Shown piece by piece: positions 15,094 to 63,742 of a stretch of 64,000 bases of DNA. How positions within the stretch are numbered: the stretch's first letter is position 1; every line of letters starts with the position of its first letter. Both the position numbers and the translations under genes were made by a program. Under the pieces are notes generated by a model. The model saw only the letters and a program-made list of their open reading frames with translations. It was not told the origin of the DNA and made no database searches. Origin of the DNA: Enterobacter sp. JBIWA008. Its GTDB lineage: Bacteria; Pseudomonadota; Gammaproteobacteria; Enterobacterales; Enterobacteriaceae. Location of the stretch: positions 496,001-560,000 of the forward strand of contig NZ_CP074149.1 in the NCBI RefSeq assembly GCF_019968765.1, written 5' to 3'.

Positions 15094-16431
15094 TTACGCC
15101 GACACCTTCTCTTCCGCGTCCGGCAACTTCGGTACCAGTACGGTCGGTTTGTTGTCGATGCGCGTCACCAGCAGCTGATCGATGCGGTAGTTATCAATAT
15201 CCACCACCTCAAACTTGTAGCCGGAGAACTTCACCGAGTCGGTACGTTTCGGGATCTTACGCAGCATAAACATCATAAAGCCGCCGATGGTCTCGTAGTT
15301 GCCGGACTGCGGGAACTCGTCGATATCCAGCACGCGCATTACGTCTTCAATCGGTGTGCCGCCATCAATCAGCCATGAATTATCGTCACGCTGAACAATC
15401 TGCTCTTCCAGCCCCTGGCCAACCAGGTCGCCCATCAGCGTGGTCATCACGTCGTTCAGGGTGATAATCCCCACCACCAGCGCGTATTCGTTCATGATAA
15501 CCGCGAAGTCTTCCCCGGCGGTTTTGAAACTTTCCAGCGCTTCTGAGAGCGTCAGGGTGTCCGGTACAATCAGGGTGTTACGGATCTGCACGCCGCTGTT
15601 GAGCGCCAGGCTTTGGTTTGCCAGCACGCGGTTCAGCAGGTCTTTGGAGTCGACATAACCGATGATGTGGTCGATATCTTCATTACAGACCAGGAACTTA
15701 GAGTGCGGATGCTGCGCTACTTTGTTCTTCAGGCTCTGCTCATCTTCATGTAAATCGAACCAGATAATGTTCTCACGGCCCGTCATGGAAGACGGCACGG
15801 TACGGGATTCCAGTTCGAATACGTTCTCAATCAGCTCGTGTTCCTGCTTGCGCAGCACCCCGGCCAGCGCGCCGGCTTCCACGACCGCATAAATGTCGTC
15901 AGACGTGATGTCGTCTTTACGCACCATCGGCAGCTTAAAGATGCGGAAAATGACGTTTGCCAGGCCGTTGAAGAACCACACCAGCGGACGAAACACGTAC
16001 AGACAGAAGCGCATCGGGTTGATGATACGCAAAGCCACAGCTTCTGGCGCAATCATACCGATGCGTTTCGGGGTCAGGTCTGCAAAGAGGATGAACAGGC
16101 CGGTTACCAGCGAGAAGGAGAGGATAAAGCTCAGCTGTTCGGCCAGTTCAACGGACATGTACTGCACAAACAGGCTATAAAACGCCGGGGAAAACGCCGC
16201 ATCACCCACGATACCGCCGAGGATGGCGACCGCGTTGAGGCCAATCTGCACCACGGTGAAGAACATGCCGGGGTTTTCCTGCATTTTCAGGATGCGGGTG
16301 GCATTGATGTTGCCTTCATCGGCAAGCAGCTTCAGTTTGATTTTACGGGACGCGGCCAGCGAGATCTCAGATATCGAGAAAAACGCGCTGACGGCAATCA
16401 GACAAAGTATTACTAAAATACTGTTTAACAT
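15094..16431 (-). CDS. ytfL: Hemolysin-family CNNM/CBS membrane protein YtfL
   Basis: A 445-residue inner-membrane protein. The N-terminal DUF21/CNNM domain has about four hydrophobic segments (1-180). A CBS pair (about 205-335) and a C-terminal CorC/HlyC transporter-associated domain follow. E. coli YtfL has been linked to cadaverine or cation homeostasis; its exact role is less certain than its family. Its first codons and upstream region are contained in the 160-bp repeat that bounds the adjacent island. Confidence 0.92.
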   Translation of the reverse strand: MLNSILVILCLIAVSAFFSISEISLAASRKIKLKLLADEGNINATRILKMQENPGMFFTVVQIGLNAVAILGGIVGDAAFSPAFYSLFVQYMSVELAEQLSFILSFSLVTGLFILFADLTPKRIGMIAPEAVALRIINPMRFCLYVFRPLVWFFNGLANVIFRIFKLPMVRKDDITSDDIYAVVEAGALAGVLRKQEHELIENVFELESRTVPSSMTGRENIIWFDLHEDEQSLKNKVAQHPHSKFLVCNEDIDHIIGYVDSKDLLNRVLANQSLALNSGVQIRNTLIVPDTLTLSEALESFKTAGEDFAVIMNEYALVVGIITLNDVMTTLMGDLVGQGLEEQIVQRDDNSWLIDGGTPIEDVMRVLDIDEFPQSGNYETIGGFMMFMLRKIPKRTDSVKFSGYKFEVVDIDNYRIDQLLVTRIDNKPTVLVPKLPDAEEKVSA

Positions 16432-16580
16432 AGTTTATCCGGCTTCTCGCCAGATCCTCAGAAGGGGAGTTGATACCATTCGTGTGAAAACACATTGAAA
16501 ATCAGCTCGTAGCGTTGAGCCGATTATTTCAGCGGGTAGTATAGCGTAAAGAGATGTAAATCTGCCAGAGGTCACATTTT
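16421..16580. repeat. Left 160-bp direct repeat (attachment-site copy, ytfL side)
   Basis: Base-for-base identical to 25674-25833 by reading. It contains the first eleven bases of ytfL coding sequence on the minus strand and all of the upstream sequence to the edge of the island. Repeats flanking an integrase are expected products of site-specific integration; 160 bp is long for a core, so the true crossover is a shorter segment within it. Confidence 0.9.
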
Positions 16581-16650
16581 TACGCTTAAGTACCGAGAAG
16601 TGTTGTGCTTGGGAATTGATGGGAACCATTCTCATTTAAAGAGGGTTTTC

Positions 16651-17850
16651 ATGCAATCTTTACCAGATCTTTATCCAATCTTTATACAGCAAAATGTGCG
16701 TTTTTTAGACAGGACAGCTTCCTCTGAACGCTCTTTTATGTGGCAGCGTCGATTAGCTGGGAAACTTCTTCGAGTTAGCCTACGCACTCAGGACAGAAAT
16801 GTGGCTCAGTATCGTGCCGTAAAGCTCACTGAAGCCTTTATAAGGCTCTCTCAGCTAATGGGAAATACAAATCCACTATTGATTCGTGAAACGCTTCTAA
16901 AGGCCAGAGATAAGCAAATAGAGGATGAATTTTTATCCGCCGCCTCTGTATGTCATGTCTCGCCGCATCCAGTAATACAAGAAAAGAGCATTTCCCCTTT
17001 ATTGTCATCAGTACTTAATGAGTGGCTTGAGGAGATGAGTTCTGATTGGGCGAAGAGTACCAAAGTGCTTAATGAGAGAACGGTGAATGGTTTCCTGGAA
17101 TGGTGTGGGGATATCCCAGTAGCTTCAGTTACGAAAAAGACGGTGAGTACTTATAAAAAGTTTCTTGATAAGTCGGGTAAGTCACCTCGATCCAGACAAG
17201 ATGCCATTATTAAGGTTTCTGCGATGTTCAATTTCGCTATGAAGCAACGTGATTACATCGTGAAGAATCCTTTTTTGGGGATGAACTATAAGAATGTTGA
17301 AAATGTGAGTATTAAAACGGGTGTTTCATTAAGGGAGCATCAAAAAATAATTTCTTCTGAGCATGTTGGTAATACCAGGTCCTTATGGTGGTTACTAAAC
17401 CTACTTTTTTACACAGGAGTACGTATCGGTGAGGCGATCCAAATCTCTTCAAATGATTATATTGAGAAAGAAGACCAAGGAATACTCATCAAGTGTATCA
17501 GCATTAATGATGCGGGTACTAAAACCGTTAAGAATAACGAGTCAATTCGCGATATACCTTTAAGTGATAGTCTTCTAAAGGCTGGTATATGGGAAGAGAA
17601 ACCAATATATCATTGGGTTAATAATTCATCTGCAAGTAATGCCGTAAGCAAGGCTTTCAAAAAAGCAGGTATGAAACATACAGCACATGACTATAGATAT
17701 GGCTTGTCAGACCGATTGAGAGATCTTCAAGAAGTACCAGACCATATAAGATTCTCGATACTTGGACATGCTCATCGAACAATGACGGATAGAACATACA
17801 GGAGTAAACAACCACTTCTGCAAATGAAACAAGTGATTGATCGTATCTGA
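16651..17850 (+). CDS. int: Tyrosine-type site-specific integrase
   Basis: Start chosen at 16651 (MQSLPDLYP), where aaagagggttttc supplies a ribosome site; an upstream in-frame ATG at 16600 has none. The 399-residue product has a P4-integrase-like N-terminal half, a core-binding SAM-like domain (about 115-205) and a catalytic domain with all six expected positions: R in TGVRIGEA, K in AGTKTVKNN, H-x-x-R in HDYRYG, H in LGHAH and nucleophile Y in DRTYRSK. It sits 71 bp inside the left repeat, the usual position for an integrase beside its att site, and should catalyse insertion and excision. Confidence 0.93.
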   Translation: MQSLPDLYPIFIQQNVRFLDRTASSERSFMWQRRLAGKLLRVSLRTQDRNVAQYRAVKLTEAFIRLSQLMGNTNPLLIRETLLKARDKQIEDEFLSAASVCHVSPHPVIQEKSISPLLSSVLNEWLEEMSSDWAKSTKVLNERTVNGFLEWCGDIPVASVTKKTVSTYKKFLDKSGKSPRSRQDAIIKVSAMFNFAMKQRDYIVKNPFLGMNYKNVENVSIKTGVSLREHQKIISSEHVGNTRSLWWLLNLLFYTGVRIGEAIQISSNDYIEKEDQGILIKCISINDAGTKTVKNNESIRDIPLSDSLLKAGIWEEKPIYHWVNNSSASNAVSKAFKKAGMKHTAHDYRYGLSDRLRDLQEVPDHIRFSILGHAHRTMTDRTYRSKQPLLQMKQVIDRI

Positions 17851-18414: not shown

Positions 18415-18479
18415 AGAGAAGAAAAAAATGAAATGAATTTAAATTATGTCCTATACTATATGTATAGTTAAAAATCCTG

Positions 18480-19290
18480 TTGGTGTACCCGTTAGTCGTG
18501 GGTTAATGATAAGAGCGTCATTATCCTTGGTATAATAAATTAAAACCTGATCCTATCGACAAGTAGATGGCAGATGAGTTGTTCAACAGAACGCAGTGCA
18601 AATGAAACCCGTGCAAATTTCCCGAGCGTAAATTCCAGACAAAAAAGACGAAAACGCAGGAGTCACGGCAATGTGGCACTATAAAGGAATCGGATAATAC
18701 CCCGTAGATTCCCTTGATAGACATATAAGGCCAATCCTTACCAAATGGTATAAGGGAGTCTATTACTTCTAATAGATTCTGTGGCGAATTTATACAATAT
18801 AGATCCGTCCAGAATTTGAGAAGTACTTAGACGCTTATAGGAGTTATTCATACAGCTTTTATAAGAAGAGTAGCGATGAGCTACGACCGTTGCAGAGAAT
18901 GGCGATAGGAAGAAACAGGGCAACCCGCTTCCGCTTGAGTACAATATAGTTGTATTCAAAATTCGCTGTATGAAATGTTGATGAGTATCAGCGTCAAGAA
19001 ATACAAATTATTTGTATATCTTGAATTTCTTCCCCCTTAGTGGGGGATCAAAATGTATCCAAGAAATCCCGTCAAGGGGTAACGCTGTTAAAGCTAATCA
19101 GTACCTAATAAACGTATCGCTAAAGCAAAACTTAATATCCAATGAATTGATATTCGACTTTAATTGAACGCAGTGAGATTAAATCGAATGAAATTCCTGG
19201 TTCGCTTGTAAAGCGAGACAGTCAATATTCAATGAAAGTATCAGTTCAATTGGATATCGTAAGGATTGATAATTTCAATTTTTCTTTGTG
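18480..19290 (+). ncRNA. Candidate large structured noncoding RNA
   Basis: About 800 bp with no credible ORF but dense nested complementarity. Helices seen: CTAT..AAGGAATC with GATTCCCTT..ATAG (18678-18721); TCTATTA-cttc-TAATAGA; GTAGC-gatga-GCTAC; GGAAG..GGG-caa-CCC..CTTCC (18908-18932); GAGTACAA-tatag-TTGTATTC; a GGCGA/TCGCT closing pair; CAGCGT (18989) with ACGCTG (19082) enclosing three hairpins, one with 15-nt arms (18994-19024); ATATCCAAT with ATTGGATAT enclosing two further hairpins (19136-19258). Two pairs are G-U if read on the plus strand but A-C on the minus strand, favouring plus-strand transcription. Ends are approximate. No known RNA family was recognised. Confidence 0.55.
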
Positions 19291-19554: not shown

Positions 19555-20166
19555 CTAATTAACTTTGTTAACAATCATCACTACAGTACCAATGACATTG
19601 ATGCTTTTCATATCTTCAAAAGCGACCGTGATTGATGGGTAATTGTCATTATCACTCAGTAAGCGTACTCCATCCATGAGTACCTGTACTCTCTTAAACA
19701 AATAATTCCCGCTCTGTTTTAATACTACAAGTTTGTTATCAGTTAAATCTGTATCGTTAGTATCAATGAGTAGCACTGCACCCGTGAGAAAAGTAGGAGT
19801 CATTACATCGGTACTGACCCTGATGGCACGCAGAGAGTGTAAACCCTTCACCTCAACCAGTTGAGCATCAAGTTTCAACATTTCATCGGCATGATCAATA
19901 AAAGGTACACATATGACATCTGAATCAGTGATGCCCATGCTCGATTGTTGGCCTGTAGCCAGCCACTCAATAGAGACATTGCCTGCTTTTGCCAAGAGTA
20001 CCAAGTTATCCAGTGTAGGGCTTGATGAACCGTGCATGTAGTTGTGAACAGTACTATAGCCAATACCCGCACGTTTTGAGAACTCTCTACCCGTTGTTCC
20101 AAGTTCTGCTATGACGTGCTTTAAGCGTTCACTGAACTCTTTAGTACTCTGCTTTTTATTGTTCAT
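19555..20166 (-). CDS. CI-like repressor (XRE HTH plus S24-like domain, serine absent)
   Basis: Start taken at MNNKKQ (20166); an ATG five codons upstream is also possible. About 203 residues. The N-terminal XRE helix-turn-helix (REFSKRAGIGYSTVHNYMHG, about 27-46 from the upstream start) is joined to a LexA/CI-type C-terminal domain. At the self-cleavage site the usual GDSM is TDVM (in RVSTDVMTPT), so the nucleophile serine is replaced by valine, while the base lysine (YLFKRVQ) remains. The repressor should still dimerise but not self-cleave in the SOS response. It faces the Ner-like gene, forming a lysogeny-type switch. Confidence 0.85.
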   Translation of the reverse strand: MNNKKQSTKEFSERLKHVIAELGTTGREFSKRAGIGYSTVHNYMHGSSSPTLDNLVLLAKAGNVSIEWLATGQQSSMGITDSDVICVPFIDHADEMLKLDAQLVEVKGLHSLRAIRVSTDVMTPTFLTGAVLLIDTNDTDLTDNKLVVLKQSGNYLFKRVQVLMDGVRLLSDNDNYPSITVAFEDMKSINVIGTVVMIVNKVN

Positions 20167-20265
20167 TCTATCGCCATTCAACTTAAGGAATTGTATTCCT
20201 AATTCGATTTGACTTGTTCATTTTATTGATCAATCATGTTCATGATTAAGTAATGAGTGATCATA
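20167..20265. promoter_or_regulatory. CI-like/Ner-like divergent switch region
   Basis: About 100 bp between the two divergent regulator starts. It holds a perfect inverted repeat, AATCATG-tt-CATGATT (20232-20247), flanked by related TGATCA words (20227-20232 and 20258-20263). These are likely operators for one or both regulators. Confidence 0.65.
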
Positions 20266-20529
20266 ATGAAGAATCATAAACAAGAAGGATCTCAAAAAAA
20301 GGAATCAAATGCCAGTACTCGAAACTGGCATCGGGCCGATGTACTTGCAGCTATACGCAAGAAAGGTAGTTCGTTGGCTAAGTTGTCCCGAGACAACGGC
20401 TTACATGAACGAACGCTATACAACGCCCTTGAGAGGCATTGGCCAAAAGGTGAGCAGATCATTGCCGATTATATTGGGGTCACCCGAGAAGAAATCTGGC
20501 CCGAACGTTACAGCAATAGTGAGGAATAA
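20266..20529 (+). CDS. Ner/Nlp-family DNA-binding regulator
   Basis: Start taken at ATG 20266 (MKNHKQEG), preceded by GAG at 20255-20257; a GTG at 20257 is the alternative. The 87-residue product matches the Ner/SfsB winged helix-turn-helix family (WHRADVLAAIRKKGSSLAKL and LHERTLYNALERHWPKGEQI). In phage Mu, Ner represses early and repressor promoters, so this protein probably opposes the divergent CI-like repressor. It appears to be the first gene of a plus-strand operon running to 22008. Confidence 0.85.
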   Translation: MKNHKQEGSQKKESNASTRNWHRADVLAAIRKKGSSLAKLSRDNGLHERTLYNALERHWPKGEQIIADYIGVTREEIWPERYSNSEE

Positions 20530-20715: not shown

Positions 20716-21576
20716 ATGAAGAAAATACAGTTTTTTGTTTATATGGGATTCGGTTTAATCATGGCGTCCATGGTTTATAGTTATTTTAGTACATTCAATG
20801 AACCAGGGATGTCATTTGCTACAGTATTACTTGCATTAGTTACTTTAGCATTTTGGAGTATGGTTATGATCATCTCATTTTGGTGGTCAATTATAGCCAT
20901 TCCATCTATACAAGAAAACCACCCCGCATTAACGCAAAAATTTCCAAAGTTTTTTAATAACTTTCTTCTGCCTATCATCATTGTCATTTTATTATTAATA
21001 GCTGGGCAAGCTAATGTATATATGATGAACCTACAAGGAAAGAATCTTGGTTTTATGATCGAAGATCAATTCTCTGAAGCGAAGAGTGCCGGGATCTTTA
21101 ACAGAGAAAAGTGGATTGAGGTTAAAGCTAAGCAAGATGAGTCAATAAAATTAGCCGATAAACATGCTGCCGCTGTAGCATTAGAAAAAAAGAACAAAGA
21201 CTACATCGAAAGTAAGATTAATAGTCTCGACAAGAGTAGTGGTAAGTACTTAGTAGCTGAAAATATCTACAAACAACATGGTGTTTGGGTCGATGATTAC
21301 ATTGCTGTTCAAAAGAAGTCATGCTCACGTGAATTCAATCGACTGTTAGCTGCTAATGCAGCGTCTGAGCAAGCCATTGAGTACTGGAATGAAACCTCTG
21401 ATTCTTTAACCCAGTCGGGTATTTCGCCATTTGCAGGGGGGAGGAGTCCTACAACCGATCCTGACATCCAGAGAGCCAACAACGATATTAGATTTGCCCG
21501 TTCTCAATTAGAAAACTGTGGTATAGCTCATCTTAACGAGATAGAACATCGTGTTACAGTACAAACTGATAATTGA
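20716..21576 (+). CDS. Hypothetical membrane protein with three N-terminal helices
   Basis: Not recognised. The 286-residue product has three hydrophobic segments (about 5-25, 35-62, 78-103) and then a polar helical domain of about 175 residues. That domain contains two cysteines (about 196 and 270) and a Lys/Asp-rich segment. It starts 15 bp after the zinc-ribbon gene with aaggga as ribosome site, and the LprI-like gene follows after 15 bp, so the three are one operon under the Ner-like/CI-like switch. Confidence 0.75.
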   Translation: MKKIQFFVYMGFGLIMASMVYSYFSTFNEPGMSFATVLLALVTLAFWSMVMIISFWWSIIAIPSIQENHPALTQKFPKFFNNFLLPIIIVILLLIAGQANVYMMNLQGKNLGFMIEDQFSEAKSAGIFNREKWIEVKAKQDESIKLADKHAAAVALEKKNKDYIESKINSLDKSSGKYLVAENIYKQHGVWVDDYIAVQKKSCSREFNRLLAANAASEQAIEYWNETSDSLTQSGISPFAGGRSPTTDPDIQRANNDIRFARSQLENCGIAHLNEIEHRVTVQTDN

Positions 21577-21591
21577 AATGGATTCAGGATT

Positions 21592-22008
21592 ATGTATTTT
21601 AAAGCGGTTGTTATAAGTTTAAGTTTGCTATTGTGTTTATCGGCCTCTGCTGATGAACTTAAGCAAAATATTGATAGCACATTACAAAAATGCAAGATGG
21701 ATGCTGTTAGTACCATTGACTCACAGAATTGCTATATTAAAGCTACTACAGCGTGGGATACTGAGCTTGGGAATCAATATAAACTGCTAATGAAAGATCA
21801 GCCTGAAAATGTGCGTGCTGCCCTAAGAGATTCACAAAGGCAATGGATAAAATACAGAGATTCGTATAATAAAGGAATTGAGGCTTTTTATCAAAAAGAA
21901 GAGGGTACTATCTGGAGTTTGATTGCGGCTGAAAGCAAAATGAATATCATCCGCGATAAAACATTAGATCTTTATCGACTCAGGAATAGTACAAATCTTG
22001 GTGGCTGA
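21592..22008 (+). CDS. LprI/DUF1311-family secreted protein
   Basis: The 138-residue product begins with a signal peptide (about 1-20, LLLCLSASA) and continues as a DUF1311 (lysozyme inhibitor LprI-like) domain: a cysteine pair (C34 and C46), then the family pattern of W..ELG..YK and RAALRDSQRQWIKYRD. LprI proteins inhibit lysozyme in Mycobacterium, but most DUF1311 members are uncharacterised. On a mobile island it could be a periplasmic partner of the preceding membrane protein. Last gene of its operon, with a strong terminator after it. Confidence 0.82.
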   Translation: MYFKAVVISLSLLLCLSASADELKQNIDSTLQKCKMDAVSTIDSQNCYIKATTAWDTELGNQYKLLMKDQPENVRAALRDSQRQWIKYRDSYNKGIEAFYQKEEGTIWSLIAAESKMNIIRDKTLDLYRLRNSTNLGG

Positions 22009-22222: not shown

Positions 22223-22789
22223 TTAAGATGCCGCACAGTTCATTTCTTTCTTGATTCGGCTAATAGTGTTGGTACTTACACCGAAGTCAGCAGCTACAGA
22301 GCGAACACTTCCGCCAGATGCCAATGCCGCGAGGATTTCAGTACGCGGGATATGCCTACCATTTCCACGTCCAGCAATACGACCAGCAGCCTTAGCTGCT
22401 TCGTAACCCTCTCTTTGCCTGAGCAGCATCATTTCACGTTCCATTTGGCAAATTCCCGAAAGTAAAGTTAGAACCAGTTTACCAGTAGGTGAGTTATCTC
22501 CCGTCTTAATGCCTTCATGATGAAACTGGATCGCGACACCCCGTTTAGTCAAAGTATCTACAGTTGAGAGAAGGTCGGTTGTATTACGGGCAAGGCGGCT
22601 GATGTCATGCACATGCAAAGTATCGCCTTCGCGTAAGTACTCCATCATCGCTAAGAATGCTTCACGATTGGTATCTTTCGCACTTACTTTCTCAGTGAAT
22701 ACTTTTTCAAAGGTGATCCCCGTATCTGCTAATTGTCGCTCGCTGTTTTGTTGCAAGCTGGATACGCGAATATAAGCGATGTGTGCCAT
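22223..22789 (-). CDS. Serine recombinase, resolvase/invertase family
   Basis: The 188-residue product has the catalytic domain of small serine recombinases: YIRVSSLQQNSERQ with the nucleophile serine at residue 10, HVHDISRLARNT with the conserved arginines, and the long E helix (QMEREMMLLRQREGYEAAK). A C-terminal helix-turn-helix of the Hin/Pin type follows (GGSVRSVAADFGVSTNTISRI, split by valine). It could resolve, invert or regulate. Inverted repeats just upstream are likely binding sites. Presence of a second recombinase class on an island that has a tyrosine integrase is unusual. Confidence 0.92.
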   Translation of the reverse strand: MAHIAYIRVSSLQQNSERQLADTGITFEKVFTEKVSAKDTNREAFLAMMEYLREGDTLHVHDISRLARNTTDLLSTVDTLTKRGVAIQFHHEGIKTGDNSPTGKLVLTLLSGICQMEREMMLLRQREGYEAAKAAGRIAGRGNGRHIPRTEILAALASGGSVRSVAADFGVSTNTISRIKKEMNCAAS

Positions 22790-23150: not shown

Positions 23151-24440
23151 ATGAATACTATAGCTTCTGTTTATATCAAAGGCCTGTGGGGGCATCAAGA
23201 TATAAACATATATATTAATAGCAAAACAAATTTTATAATAGGTGTTAATGGTACAGGGAAAACTACACTTATTAATCTACTTGCCGCGGCACTCACCTTT
23301 GATTATGAGAAGCTTTTAAGGATTGAATTTGATAGTATTTTAATTCGGCTTAAAGAAATTGGTGGTTCCCGTCGACCAAGCATTCGTGTTAGAAAAGAGC
23401 CATTGGCATCAGAAGAAAGTCTAATATATGAAATCAAAATGGCGGCGAAAGAGGAGCCTATAGTAATCCCTTTTGACCCTCGATTCGATCGAGTTTATAT
23501 AGAAACGAAGGATGGAAACAGGATCGTAAGCAGAAGAAGGGGGACTAATCAGGAATCTCATTCTTTAAGTGAGATAAGTCTTGCCTTAAAAGAATTGATT
23601 AAGGTTTCATGGTTATCCGTAAACCGCTCAGATAATTTGTACTTTAGAGATGCCGACAAAAGAGCTTTAACGACTATTGACCATAAGATTATTGAATTGA
23701 ACAATAATCTTGTCCGTTATTTTTCGGTACTATCTCAAAATTTTTCTGATCATACGATTGAATTTCAGAAAAAAAGCTTCCTTGCTCTGATTAATAATGA
23801 GGGAGCAGACCCCATATTTCAATTCTCAAGTTCGATCGACATCGATCAAGAACGTAAAACATTAGTAGAAGTTTTTGATGTTCTTGGTGTTGATAATAAG
23901 TATTATCTCAAAAAACTAAATGAACACTTTTCTCGATTAGAAAAAATTAAACAAAGAGCAAATTCCAAAGCTATTTCCGTAGATGATTTTTCGGTGATGT
24001 ATAATTCTTGGCGTGCTCATACATTAGTTGCCGATTATGAAATTTTACAGACTAAAAAAGCCAGTATATTTAAACCCAGAGATAACTTTATTTCTTTACT
24101 TAATTCAATGTTTAATGGTCGTAAAAAGTTCTCTGTTTCTGATAAAAGCGAACTTGTAGTTATGACTAAAGATGGTCGATTAATTGAGTTGGAAGAATTA
24201 TCATCAGGGGAAAAACAGTTACTTATTATTCTTGGTGAAACATTACTACAACAATCTCAGCATGTTATATATATCGCAGATGAACCTGAGTTATCATTGC
24301 ATGTCATTTGGCAAGAACAACTGATTGGGGCTATTACGAAGCTAAATCCAAATGCACAAATTATTTTTGCTACTCACTCTCCTGATATTGTAGGTGTTGA
24401 GCAAGATGCTGTCATTGATATGGAGGATTTGGTTTCATGA
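23151..24440 (+). CDS. AAA/ABC-type ATPase, PARIS AriA-like
   Basis: A 429-residue SMC/RecF-type ATPase: Walker A GVNGTGKTT (residues 31-39), signature LSSGEKQ (about 350-356), Walker B VIYIADEPE (catalytic E378) and H-loop FATHSPDIVG. The middle is helical and unlike repair proteins. The next gene, a DUF4435 protein, overlaps by ATGA. This ATPase plus DUF4435 arrangement is that of PARIS, in which AriA holds AriB inactive until a phage anti-restriction protein such as Ocr is sensed. The assignment rests on architecture and gene pairing, not on a search. Confidence 0.78.
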   Translation: MNTIASVYIKGLWGHQDINIYINSKTNFIIGVNGTGKTTLINLLAAALTFDYEKLLRIEFDSILIRLKEIGGSRRPSIRVRKEPLASEESLIYEIKMAAKEEPIVIPFDPRFDRVYIETKDGNRIVSRRRGTNQESHSLSEISLALKELIKVSWLSVNRSDNLYFRDADKRALTTIDHKIIELNNNLVRYFSVLSQNFSDHTIEFQKKSFLALINNEGADPIFQFSSSIDIDQERKTLVEVFDVLGVDNKYYLKKLNEHFSRLEKIKQRANSKAISVDDFSVMYNSWRAHTLVADYEILQTKKASIFKPRDNFISLLNSMFNGRKKFSVSDKSELVVMTKDGRLIELEELSSGEKQLLIILGETLLQQSQHVIYIADEPELSLHVIWQEQLIGAITKLNPNAQIIFATHSPDIVGVEQDAVIDMEDLVS

Positions 24441-25345
24441 CTTTTTCAAGAACAGCGAGTGGATTAAGAAATTATAATATATTTTATAAAGTCGAAGCTG
24501 TTGTTTATATTGAGGGGAGACTTTTAGAAAAATCAACTACACAACAGAGTACCGATGATTCGAAAGTGTTTGATGTTATTTTTTATACCTCTTTGTTTAA
24601 AGTGTTTACTCCTCACCATAATGTTAAAATAAAGATTGTTGGTTGCAAGGATAATGTATTAGATTATCATGATAAAATAGTTAATGAGAAAATATCTAAT
24701 TCTTTTGCAATTATAGATCGTGATTATGATGGAGTGTATTTCACAAGGACCAATTCAGAGAAGCTGATTGTTACTCACGGCTATAGCTGGGAAAATGATT
24801 TTTGGTCTCCTAATCTTTATTTCGAACTGGCAAGATTGCTTAGTTTAGATAGTGATCTTGCGTGCGATATTGTACAACAAAAATTAGTGCGTTCTATCCG
24901 GAGATTATGCTTAATTAATAGGGCTAACTTGGTCTCGAAATTCTTTGGTAATGGTATTTTCCCCATAGGAAAAAAAGGTGGGGATAAAGGGTTTAGGTAT
25001 GATGTTAATTTAAAATATCCATTGCAATTATGTGAGGTAAAAAGGCTTTTTAATAAAATATCAGAGGATGTAAAAACAGATCCTGAACTCCATGAGTTAA
25101 TTGTTGCAACTAAGCTTGATTTTAATAACCTTATCCAAGGTCATTTTTATGAGTATATGATTTTGCAAATTTTGTCTTATGCATATAAAATAACTTCTGG
25201 TATAACTCATAATATTGCTGATTTTAATTTAATAAAAAATGTAGCATTCAATAATTTTAAAATGAAACCCGATTACTACTTAGAACCTTCTACGCTGAGT
25301 CATTATGAACAGCAGTTCTCGAGAGTACTTCAAGCTGCATACTGA
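24437..25345 (+). CDS. DUF4435 TOPRIM-like nuclease, PARIS AriB-like
   Basis: The 302-residue product carries the DUF4435/OLD-type TOPRIM pattern: E26 in VVYIEGR, KIVGCKDN after the first alpha-beta unit, and the acidic pair D94/D96 in AIIDRDYDG. The C-terminal half is helical. AriB of PARIS is a TOPRIM effector that, once released, cuts host tRNA-Lys and stops phage growth. The ATGA overlap with the ATPase gene implies coupled translation. Codons are AT-rich like the rest of the island. Conserved acidic residues suggest the effector is intact. Confidence 0.78.
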   Translation: MTFSRTASGLRNYNIFYKVEAVVYIEGRLLEKSTTQQSTDDSKVFDVIFYTSLFKVFTPHHNVKIKIVGCKDNVLDYHDKIVNEKISNSFAIIDRDYDGVYFTRTNSEKLIVTHGYSWENDFWSPNLYFELARLLSLDSDLACDIVQQKLVRSIRRLCLINRANLVSKFFGNGIFPIGKKGGDKGFRYDVNLKYPLQLCEVKRLFNKISEDVKTDPELHELIVATKLDFNNLIQGHFYEYMILQILSYAYKITSGITHNIADFNLIKNVAFNNFKMKPDYYLEPSTLSHYEQQFSRVLQAAY

Positions 25346-25564: not shown

Positions 25565-25684
25565 CTACCAACTTGATCCCTTCTGTTCTCTGTCATATGG
25601 TCCAATACTCATAATCACCATCAAACCCGCACCAACACTGACATACTGCCCCAGTAAAGTGGATTCAAAATGGCTGTTTAACAT
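25565..25684 (-). CDS. Chimeric small ORF fused to the duplicated ytfL start
   Basis: The right repeat carries a second copy of the ytfL promoter region, ribosome site and codons MLNS. Reading inward, the frame stays open for 39 codons (MLNSHFESTLLGQYVSVGAG...) and ends TAG at 25565. The middle is hydrophobic (VSVGAGLMVIMSIG). The island end is therefore positioned so that a host promoter and start codon would express island-encoded residues. No family recognised; it may be a chance ORF. Confidence 0.4.
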   Translation of the reverse strand: MLNSHFESTLLGQYVSVGAGLMVIMSIGPYDREQKGSSW

Positions 25685-25833
25685 AGTTTATCCGGCTTCT
25701 CGCCAGATCCTCAGAAGGGGAGTTGATACCATTCGTGTGAAAACACATTGAAAATCAGCTCGTAGCGTTGAGCCGATTATTTCAGCGGGTAGTATAGCGT
25801 AAAGAGATGTAAATCTGCCAGAGGTCACATTTT
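25674..25833. repeat. Right 160-bp direct repeat (attachment-site copy, msrA side)
   Basis: Identical to 16421-16580. Flanking bases differ on both sides (g against a before it, g against t after it), which fixes the repeat length at 160. The backbone sequence leading to msrA begins directly after it. Confidence 0.9.
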
Positions 25834-46875: not shown

Positions 46876-47031
46876 CTACTGGCCGGAGCGACACTCCATC
46901 CGCGCGGTCACTTCAAGCGAGCCGTTTCGAAAACGGATCTCGCACAGTGTTTTCCTCGTCACCAGCGTTAAGATGATTATCGTCAAAGAAATAATCATCA
47001 AAATCCCGATACTTGGGTTTCTGCGTTTCAT
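46876..47031 (-). CDS. Hok/Gef-family type I toxin
   Basis: A 51-residue peptide starting MKRRNPSIGILM with aaggagg as a strong ribosome site. One membrane helix (about 7-24) is followed by the family signature TRKTLCEIRFRNG and EVTARMECRSGQ, close to Hok of plasmid R1 (TRKSLCEIRYRDG). Hok peptides depolarise the inner membrane and kill the cell unless their translation is blocked by antisense Sok RNA. The leader upstream has the Mok/Sok arrangement. It appears intact. Confidence 0.9.
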   Translation of the reverse strand: MKRRNPSIGILMIISLTIIILTLVTRKTLCEIRFRNGSLEVTARMECRSGQ

Positions 47032-47167
47032 GGATGCCTCCTTGCTGTAAAGCGGGCGAGGTAGCAAACATCACGTGGCTAGACGTGTCGTTTACAGCCC
47101 CGTCCTGATTTAAATTCAGGTAGGGGCTTTCCACTTTCCGTCCCAGGCCTGAGACGGTCAGTCTCAA
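46913..47167 (-). CDS. Mok-like overlapping leader ORF
   Basis: An 84-codon frame that begins upstream of hok and overlaps most of it in another frame, as mok does in hok/sok systems. In those systems translation of mok is required for hok translation and Sok blocks mok. The peptide itself probably has no role. The exact start is uncertain. Confidence 0.5.
   Translation of the reverse strand: MRLTVSGLGRKVESPYLNLNQDGAVNDTSSHVMFATSPALQQGGIHETQKPKYRDFDDYFFDDNHLNAGDEENTVRDPFSKRLA
47065..47131 (+). ncRNA. Sok-like antisense RNA
   Basis: On the strand opposite the hok leader, AGCCCC (47096-47101) and GGGGCT (47123-47128), with inner CCTGA/TCAGG, form a terminator hairpin followed by TTT. This AGCCCC hairpin is typical of the Sok 3' end. 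The 5' end given is approximate and no promoter was assigned with confidence. Confidence 0.5.
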
Positions 47168-47449
47168 GCACCCGCCGCCACTCTACCCATTCCCCATAAG
47201 AAAACCTTATCCACGTCACATTTCTACGAGCTTGCTCGGAATCTTTTCCACTCTGCTTACCCGTTCGTTACCGCTTAATAGCGTGATAATCATCACACGA
47301 ATGCATCGATTAATTCAGATTCACCGCATTTATGTGGCACAGATCACTGCTGCGGCTCGCCTTTCCACTTCGAAGTGGAAAACAACTCGCTACAAACAAT
47401 TCCCCCCCAACGTTAGTTTTATTCCAGAGCCATTAACGGGGTAAGACCA
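47168..47449. promoter_or_regulatory. Upstream region of the amino-sugar-acid operon
   Basis: About 280 bp without a supported gene, between the hok leader and the PRD gene. It contains the 20-bp palindrome at 47362-47381 and AT-rich promoter-like sequence near 47270-47330 (gcgtgataatcatcacac). A CRP-like TGTGGCACAGATCAC word at 47333-47347 is possible. Confidence 0.45.
47362..47381. promoter_or_regulatory. 20-bp perfect palindrome, likely operator of the PRD regulator
   Basis: TTTCCACTTC and GAAGTGGAAA meet without a spacer, giving a perfect palindrome 87 bp before the first operon gene. Sites of this kind (TTCCACTT..AAGTGGAA) are what a DNA-binding PRD activator dimer would use. The gene for such a regulator closes the cluster at 54172-56082. 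Confidence 0.6.
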
Positions 47450-63351: not shown

Positions 63352-63742
63352 GCTGTATTCCCTGTAACAACGACGATGTAGTGAATTGAGCCTAATGCTA
63401 TAGCGCGATTTCGCTATGGGCAAAGTCTGGTTTACGTTCGGTTTATTTGCAGGGGGGTATAATACCGCCCGAATCGTCATAAAGGGTATGCCTAAATCCC
63501 TGGACTGCGCGGCGACACCCTACTTTTTACTTACCGGAGGCTTCATGGATCCCGATCCCACACCTCTCCTGAACGGGAGAATGCGTTCTTTCCGGTAAGC
63601 CAGCCTGTTGCTGACTCACCGGTGATGTGAGGCAGCAACGTCTTAAACGTTCCTGCTTGAAAAATTGAGTGCCTCTCAGGTACGGCTTTGCCACGCCTGA
63701 AGGAATTGCTGCGTCCGCCCCGGCGGATGCGGAGGAATGACT
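63352..63742 (+). promoter_or_regulatory. mgtA promoter and 5' leader
   Basis: The treR-mgtA divergent region contains the long mgtA leader. After the MgtL coding sequence, GC-rich inverted stretches (63600-63660 and around 63690-63740) can form the alternative hairpins by which the E. coli and Salmonella mgtA leader senses magnesium. I did not map individual helices. PhoP boxes were not identified. Confidence 0.6.
63545..63598 (+). CDS. mgtL: MgtL leader peptide
   Basis: A 17-residue peptide, MDPDPTPLLNGRMRSFR, preceded by taccggaggcttc. The DPDPTPL core is that of E. coli MgtL, in which acidic and proline residues destabilise the translating ribosome at low magnesium, so that transcription continues into mgtA. 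Confidence 0.9.
   Translation: MDPDPTPLLNGRMRSFR

Follow-up and report, generated by a model that had tools for sequence, protein, structure and literature searches.

A stretch of roughly 760 bases in the window (the 64,000 nucleotides of DNA analysed here) is predicted to be the gene of a large structured RNA, which lies within a chromosomal island and belongs to a family that has no Rfam match and displays strong covariation, including at a pseudoknot. That this RNA family is real is very nearly certain. Sequence comparisons indicate that the RNA is a jumbo-phage gene, which goes beyond what the preliminary description of this DNA could tell. We propose, with a probability of roughly 0.4 and by analogy with phage T4, that it may be a transcription-primed, cis-acting replication origin that the island took from a jumbo phage.

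The RNA gene and its conserved elements are located in the window as follows.

18429..18457, plus strand: phage-type promoter TGAAAT-N17-TATACT (family consensus TGRRAY, 17 or 18 nt, TATAMT)
18464..19222, plus strand: predicted RNA, with the 5' end inferred from the promoter and the 3' end from the last conserved hairpin
18546..18758, plus strand: domain A (53-row alignment A1)
18547-18573, 18578-18592, 18686-18712 and 18726-18740, plus strand: domain A helices P2, P3, P5 and P6
18595-18599 with 18676-18680, plus strand: domain A helix P1
18609-18612 with 18665-18668, plus strand: domain A helix P4
18883..19074, plus strand: domain B (52-row alignment A2)
18889-18893 with 18920-18924, plus strand: domain B pseudoknot
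18902-18905 with 18963-18966, plus strand: domain B helix Q2
18908-18932, plus strand: domain B helix Q1
19033-19045, plus strand: domain B hairpin Q4
19196..19221, plus strand: 3' hairpin, the window's variant of the family's TTGRC-stem-GGC hairpin

The preliminary description had proposed a new large ornate noncoding RNA at 18480..19290, between an integrase and a repressor. Its placement relative to these two genes is correct, and its limits need adjustment: the RNA starts at about 18464, and the conserved part ends at about 19222. The statement that the stretch holds no plausible gene is upheld, as the only open reading frames of at least 60 aa inside it are two on the minus strand (67 and 73 aa). 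The plus strand at 18468-19265 folds to -228 kcal/mol compared with a mean of -174.9 kcal/mol for dinucleotide shuffles, bettering 20 of 20 (z = -6.49); the minus strand also folds better than its shuffles, less strongly (z = -4.67). We did not take the minimum-free-energy fold of one sequence as evidence for individual helices. Rfam searches at curated and permissive thresholds returned only chance-level matches in this stretch, and five phage copies and an E. coli locus match no family at curated cut-offs; ARAGORN identified no tRNA genes in the window. Elsewhere, the window contains a sok antitoxin match at 47029-47173 (RF01794; 63.3 bits, barely exceeding the cut-off of 59) and an ordinary Magnesium-II riboswitch at 63530-63644 (RF01056).

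We located 67 copies of the RNA and removed 10 near-duplicates and 4 truncated copies, leaving 53 for alignment A1; alignment A2 has 52 rows, as two rows are identical in domain B. A second E. coli genome (L007) carries the same element as the first and was left out of the alignments. Sequences were aligned with MAFFT, which is blind to structure, and the structure was then written by hand. Within domain A (31 pairs), 94.7% of cells are paired, compared with 75.4% in shuffled and 30-46% in slid controls, the latter being somewhat favourable to the structure because it was derived from the same sequences; changes on both sides occur in 22 of the 31 pairs. Within domain B (23 pairs, 52 rows), 92.7% are paired, compared with 82.1% when shuffled and 46-54% when slid (with the same leaning of the slid controls), and 11 pairs have changes on both sides. 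The pseudoknot, which forms in the Q1 loop, pairs in all rows having both letters, with CG, AU and UA as alternatives, and together with Q1 it reaches 100% pairing with double changes. Hairpin Q4 varies through wobble only and contains an invariant run of G. A further candidate helix, Q3 (A2 columns 127-142), is 67.7% paired with zero double changes; it was kept in the count and rejected as a helix. Weaker measures separated the structure from its controls less clearly: the observed number of further pair types was reached by 24 of 500 shuffles for A1 and by 500 of 500 for A2, making it the one of five measures that is not above shuffles in domain B, and the number of A2 pairs with a double change was reached by 10 of 500. 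With Q3 and the final pair of P6 excluded, the kept pairs comprise 105 G-U cells against 16 A-C cells; this excess supports a plus-strand RNA, the orientation that the preliminary description had suggested, and does so across the whole family. Its proposal of a new structured RNA is supported by the lack of an Rfam match, by the existence of homologues and by their covariation in both domains.

Past domain B, the 3' hairpin pattern TTGRC-stem-GGC is present in 29 of 53 copies compared with 3 of 1060 shuffles, and the window's own hairpin is a variant outside the strict pattern. The motifs that had been described as two long arms are present in the window, CAGCGT at 18989 with ACGCTG at 19082 and ATATCCAAT at 19135 with ATTGGATAT at 19249; the helices that covary (P1-P6, Q1, Q2 and the pseudoknot) are other ones. 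Among eight aligned 3' regions, close relatives have partial counterparts of these arms at best; the arms were not observed in the wider family, and we rejected them as defining helices. The repeated sequence GAACGCAGTG does occur in two regions of the RNA, at 18589 as first described and at 19166 rather than 19167. Letters resembling GAACGNAGTG return in the 3' region of some other family copies.

A short-word blastn search with the window stretch identified 31 phage records and 2 of 5,426 E. coli genomes. A second search, started from a phage copy, returned 31 of 50,697 phage records with 144 places, five in each of 20 records and four in each of 11; BF, CBB and GAP32 are each counted twice among the 31 (GenBank and RefSeq). 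Escherichia phage Sharanji, whose record gives E. coli K-12 MG1655 as its host, is among those with four places. All 31 records are jumbo phages of 310-378 kb, and their hosts are E. coli, Salmonella, Serratia, Erwinia, Cronobacter, Pectobacterium, Klebsiella and Xanthomonas. Among the 20 records listed, the match lies under no feature in 15, under hypothetical proteins in 4 and in an unannotated record in 1. The window aligns to the best phage copies with only 72-73% identity. A degenerate pattern identified 49 stretches in IMG/VR contigs, and in the 11 viral contigs with at least two pattern hits (43 hits), all hits within a contig are on one strand. A covariance model identified five copies each in XaC1, BF, GAP32 and CBB and four in PBECO4 (128-199 bits). 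In RaK2 (JQ513383), it found three weak, diverged copies (50-71 bits, at 6.9, 191 and 280 kb), which would widen the family; with strict filters, there was no match in XacN1, PA5oct or Atu_ph07. ARAGORN identified no tRNA genes in any of the 15 phage loci scanned (3.5-8.7 kb each).

The phage copies are mostly 55-90 kb apart and all on one strand. Their uniform orientation is weak evidence, because the RNA's strand holds about 85% of the coding sequence in GAP32 and about 83% in XaC1. In all eight phages tested, the copies are spaced more evenly than expected by chance (CV 0.10-0.32 versus 0.73-0.78, P 0.0003-0.022); these phages are relatives, so that the P values are not independent, and a circular genome was assumed. 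Where the ends have been determined, such genomes are described as linear molecules whose terminal repeats measure about 20 kb (PMC13070987). In an IQ-TREE analysis of 27 rows from six phages, with loci assigned by their order along the genome, locus labels required 4 changes, the minimum, compared with 22 for phage labels; an earlier locus-label count on 18 rows, with CBB_32 left out, gave the same result as these 27 rows, which include CBB_32 and two more phages. The copies of the GAP32/CBB/BF group are orthologous by locus, whereas those of XaC1 and PBECO4 cluster mostly by phage. GC skew at four-fold sites, used as an indicator of replication direction, has opposite signs in GAP32 and XaC1, calculated with few minus-strand genes (29 and 26). 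In both phages, the endonuclease VII locus is near a coding-strand switch.

The promoter motif TGRRAY-spacer-TATAMT was found upstream of the RNA in 51 of 53 aligned copies, including those of the window, Silvania and E. coli islands, with a spacer of 17 nt in 47 and 18 nt in 4. We take it not to be a MotA box. It resembles the second promoter class of CBB and GAP32, which is described for CBB as a -35 sequence TGAAACG with a TATA -10 and noted as present in GAP32; 11 of its 18 sites in CBB precede a region with many genes for DNA synthesis (PMC5259590). GAP32 contains 28 instances of the strict form TGAAAC-N14-17-TATAAT, always on the plus strand; XaC1, whose RNA promoters end in TATACT, contains none. 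No AT-rich unwinding peak was detected behind the promoter in 51 copies. Downstream, 41 of 50 phage copies have the start of a plus-strand open reading frame no more than 222 nt from domain B, and a crude scan placed a terminator behind only 9 of 53 copies.

The island in the window measures about 9 kb and lies in an enterobacterial chromosome between two perfect 160-bp direct repeats. The host sRNA STnc450 is its integration site and has been duplicated by the island (16490-16546 and 25743-25799).

16421..16580, no strand: attL, 160-bp direct repeat with 100% identity to 25674-25833 (blast of the ends), containing STnc450
16600..17850, plus strand: island tyrosine integrase (Pfam Phage_integrase, 8.9e-8; PHROG 1, 1.5e-30)
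19555..20181, minus strand: CI-like repressor, convergent with the RNA (Pfam Peptidase_S24, 2.2e-14, and HTH_3; PHROG 4, 8.5e-43)
20257..20529, plus strand: winged-HTH regulator (HTH_35)
20716..21576, plus strand: 286-aa island-backbone protein without a Pfam match, with a distant relative in the E. coli island
21592..22008, plus strand: LprI-like protein (Pfam, 5.2e-16)
22223..22789, minus strand: resolvase/invertase
23151..24440, plus strand: cargo, AriA-like ATPase (PADLOC AriA, 7.1e-43; PDB AriA, 5e-15)
24437..25345, plus strand: 302-aa gene overlapping the AriA-like ATPase gene, at the expected place of AriB
25674..25833, no strand: attR, second copy of the 160-bp repeat (blast of the ends; STnc450 match)

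The genes at 23151-25345 are possibly a PARIS-like defence cargo in which the 302-aa neighbour is a divergent AriB; this protein has no match in Pfam, PADLOC or PHROGs and only a weak PDB match (0.0058). No virion or replication proteins were recognised among the eight island proteins scanned with Pfam and PHROG, two of which had no match. The island thus has the marks of a phage satellite: an integrase with att repeats, no recognised structural gene among those eight proteins, and an RNA gene and promoter held in common with candidate helper jumbo phages.

Bacterial carriers of the RNA are the window's island, islands in Enterobacteriaceae bacterium RIT714 and Silvania hatchlandensis, and one other island common to the two E. 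coli genomes. The degenerate pattern gave two hits, Silvania and RIT714, in 84,980 species genomes, a set from which the window's own genome may be absent; in overlapping samples of 392 family and 394 order genomes, it matched the window's own genome only. Among plasmids, neither the RNA of the window nor that of the E. coli island had a match, and nor did the window's island as a whole. The window, RIT714 and Silvania islands have backbone genes in common and two kinds of integrase. Four backbone proteins are 73-93% identical between the window and Silvania, whose recombinases (tyrosine versus large serine) and integration sites differ. The E. coli island lies at the ffs locus, and all that it has in common with the window is a distant relative each of the 286-aa protein and of the integrase; no copy of the window's backbone was found among E. 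coli genomes. The 286-aa protein has 56 database relatives (the named ones in Enterobacter, Klebsiella, Raoultella and others). A search for it in 61 genomes of the window's genus matched four, and a pattern search of viral contigs gave five stretches, none of them a relative. Its three close matches (window, Silvania and RIT714) all carry the RNA.

In the tree, the window and Silvania copies group with XaC1 copies (bootstrap/SH-aLRT 98/100), and the E. coli island copy groups with BF-type copies at the 174-kb locus (100/98); the nearest-neighbour pairing of window and Silvania is unsupported (79/45). A tree constrained to unite the three islands is worse by 114 log-likelihood units (p-AU 0.0033), which rejects a single origin. 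Because the islands are placed with two different phage lineages, satellite-like islands probably captured the RNA at least twice. With the covariance model, the copies in the islands reach 159-177 bits.

The covariance model, run with default filters, had no match in four loci that encode distant relatives of the 286-aa protein (L181-L184); in L181 and L184, searching the corresponding gap without filters gave only chance-level matches. The E. coli island backbone is 77-78% identical to that of L181 and L184, and the alignable part begins directly after RNA domain B. In the E. coli island, the RNA and a 303-aa gene occupy the place of another gene in L181 and L184, one that resembles helicases weakly in L184 and has no such match in L181; since the same backbone carries another gene in its place, the RNA looks like a swappable module. 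Both L181 (8597-9357) and L184 (5143-6120) contain an extended noncoding gap whose repeats resemble hairpins, together with an AT-rich inverted repeat, CTATTGATT...AATAG; this is perhaps a control or origin region of their own.

If the RNA gene acts as an origin, jumbo-phage infection would bring a transcription programme that activates the island's RNA promoter as it does those of the phage's own copies. Once folded, the nascent RNA would keep an RNA-DNA hybrid in place on the template; cleavage of this hybrid by the T4-like RNase H of the phage would leave a primer, and phage replication proteins would extend the primer into copies of the excised island. Phage heads would take up these copies, and the island's integrase would restore it to the chromosome at STnc450; the island would be a satellite that carries only the parts required in cis. 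In the phage itself, about five such origins would fire around the 350-kb genome. An island would need its own copy of the RNA only for a role in cis or for interference, because a multi-copy helper would supply any trans product. The probable repeated capture by islands, the lack of a recognised replication protein among the island proteins scanned and the transduction of islands by a jumbo phage of another group also favour an origin.

The model for this reading is T4, which has at least five origins; two of them, oriF and oriG, consist of a middle-mode promoter and an unwinding element, are primed through an R-loop and replicate plasmids in infected cells, and T4 origins are described as having no sequence motif in common (PMC3016281). 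According to the account in PMC5259590, CBB encodes homologues of five of the eight T4 replisome proteins and also of T4 RNase H, UvsW and Dda; the three without a homologue there are gp45, gp62 and gp59. The present family fits the T4 model in its phage-type promoter, its several spaced sites (four or five per genome) and this set of T4-like replication proteins, RNase H and UvsW among them. It differs in that an RNA structure of about 600 nt is conserved and that no unwinding element was found. A conserved pseudoknotted RNA is not something the T4 model requires, as T4 origins share no motif, and it looks more like a trans-acting molecule; the missing unwinding element and the lack of a T4-model reason for conserved folds keep our estimate for an origin where it stands and give a trans-acting RNA a substantial probability as well. 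We also count against an origin the nearby plus-strand reading frames and few terminators, which fit an mRNA leader too, the three T4 replisome proteins missing from CBB, the clustering of XaC1 and PBECO4 copies by phage, the RNA-less L181-L184 and the unmatched phages XacN1, PA5oct and Atu_ph07.

A trans-acting ornate RNA, similar in manner to GOLLD and ROOL, is the strongest competitor, plausible if somewhat doubtful: the phage would need the structured RNA, alone or with a protein, from multiple genes for dosage, and the island version would titrate or redirect the phage's partner, as defence or as control of the helper. Conserved loops, covarying stems and a pseudoknot are what such an RNA would be expected to have, the window's island carries PARIS-like cargo, and the most abundant transcripts of ICP1 and of PLE satellites are predicted to be noncoding (PMC7567579). 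Dosage, however, requires neither even spacing nor the orthologous loci seen in one phage group, and the helper already supplies the product, a point that the interference version escapes. Should the DNA itself be what matters in cis, whether for packaging, for partition or as homology used by recombination-dependent phage replication to copy the island, several copies would provide several targets, and T4 is reported to replicate origin-less plasmids too if they share homology with it (PMC3016281); selection has acted, though, on RNA pairing (G-U-tolerant and on one strand) and on a promoter rather than on DNA identity, which makes a DNA element other than an origin rather unlikely.

The closeness of plus-strand reading frames to domain B, and the plus-strand gene that follows at the endonuclease VII locus of XaC1, would suit a giant mRNA leader, such as a riboswitch or attenuator, that controls the genes behind it. 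We consider a leader improbable: at this same locus, an opposing gene follows in GAP32 and PBECO4 and a terminator-like hairpin stands behind the BF and CBB copies, the next gene in the window and Silvania islands is the convergent repressor, and the first reading frame behind one locus varies from 79 to 311 aa between phages. Least probable is that the island copies are inert relics of phage fragments acquired by chance. The rarity of the RNA in bacteria (two of the E. coli genomes, and two species-genome hits besides the window's own) is in line with a relic, but the island copies score inside the range of the five well-matched phages, and the promoter is kept in islands that probably stem from at least two captures.

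The preliminary description had likened the RNA to GOLLD and ROOL, which form nanocages, are often near tRNA islands and are described as having unknown functions (PMC12286853). The likeness holds in style, as the family is large (600-800 nt or more), multi-domain, pseudoknotted and phage-borne; identity with either is rejected, as neither Rfam model matches, and the family further differs in having no tRNA in the scanned stretches and four to five dispersed copies per phage, and in occurring also in satellite-like islands. ColE1 RNA II is a structured transcript that primes replication from an RNA-DNA hybrid, at a single site on a plasmid; the present RNA can be likened to it as a structured transcript that may serve as a primer and that has an invariant G run in Q4. 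By analogy, the nearest precedent for a phage and a satellite both making such RNAs is the Vibrio cholerae phage ICP1 with PLE, each with a dominant noncoding transcript; the two RNAs are not presented as one family in the account in PMC7567579, whereas here phage and island share one. Transduction of islands by a jumbo phage of another group has also been described (PMC12595487): I55/JPTI55 is likewise an island that encodes an integrase and defence cargo, lacks transfer genes and is moved by a jumbo phage, and it differs in its size (55 kb), its host (Pseudomonas) and its 276-kb phage, with no shared RNA mentioned in that description.

Among the matches listed in a search of PMC titles and abstracts, none concerned this RNA; supplements, preprints outside PMC and subscription papers lay outside that search, and an earlier report is possible. 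The words noncoding and intergenic are absent from the main texts of PMC5259590, PMC5852040, PMC3622015 and PMC13070987, where the repeats mentioned, as far as these accounts go, are terminal repeats or unrelated.

The covariation of this family is unusually clean, and we know of no other phage RNA with several spaced copies per phage, locus-orthologous in one phage group, and apparent independent capture by chromosomal islands. The family points to satellite-like islands for a major group of jumbo phages, and it makes the replication start sites of giant phage genomes and the role of large phage RNAs open to test. Tentatively, phages of the RaK2/GAP32/PBECO4 kind might fire about five origins, each defined by a large pseudoknotted RNA transcribed from a phage promoter, and satellites might have stolen this RNA-coded origin at least twice, from different phage lineages. 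If so, an RNA-coded replication origin would serve as a password between giant phages and their satellites.
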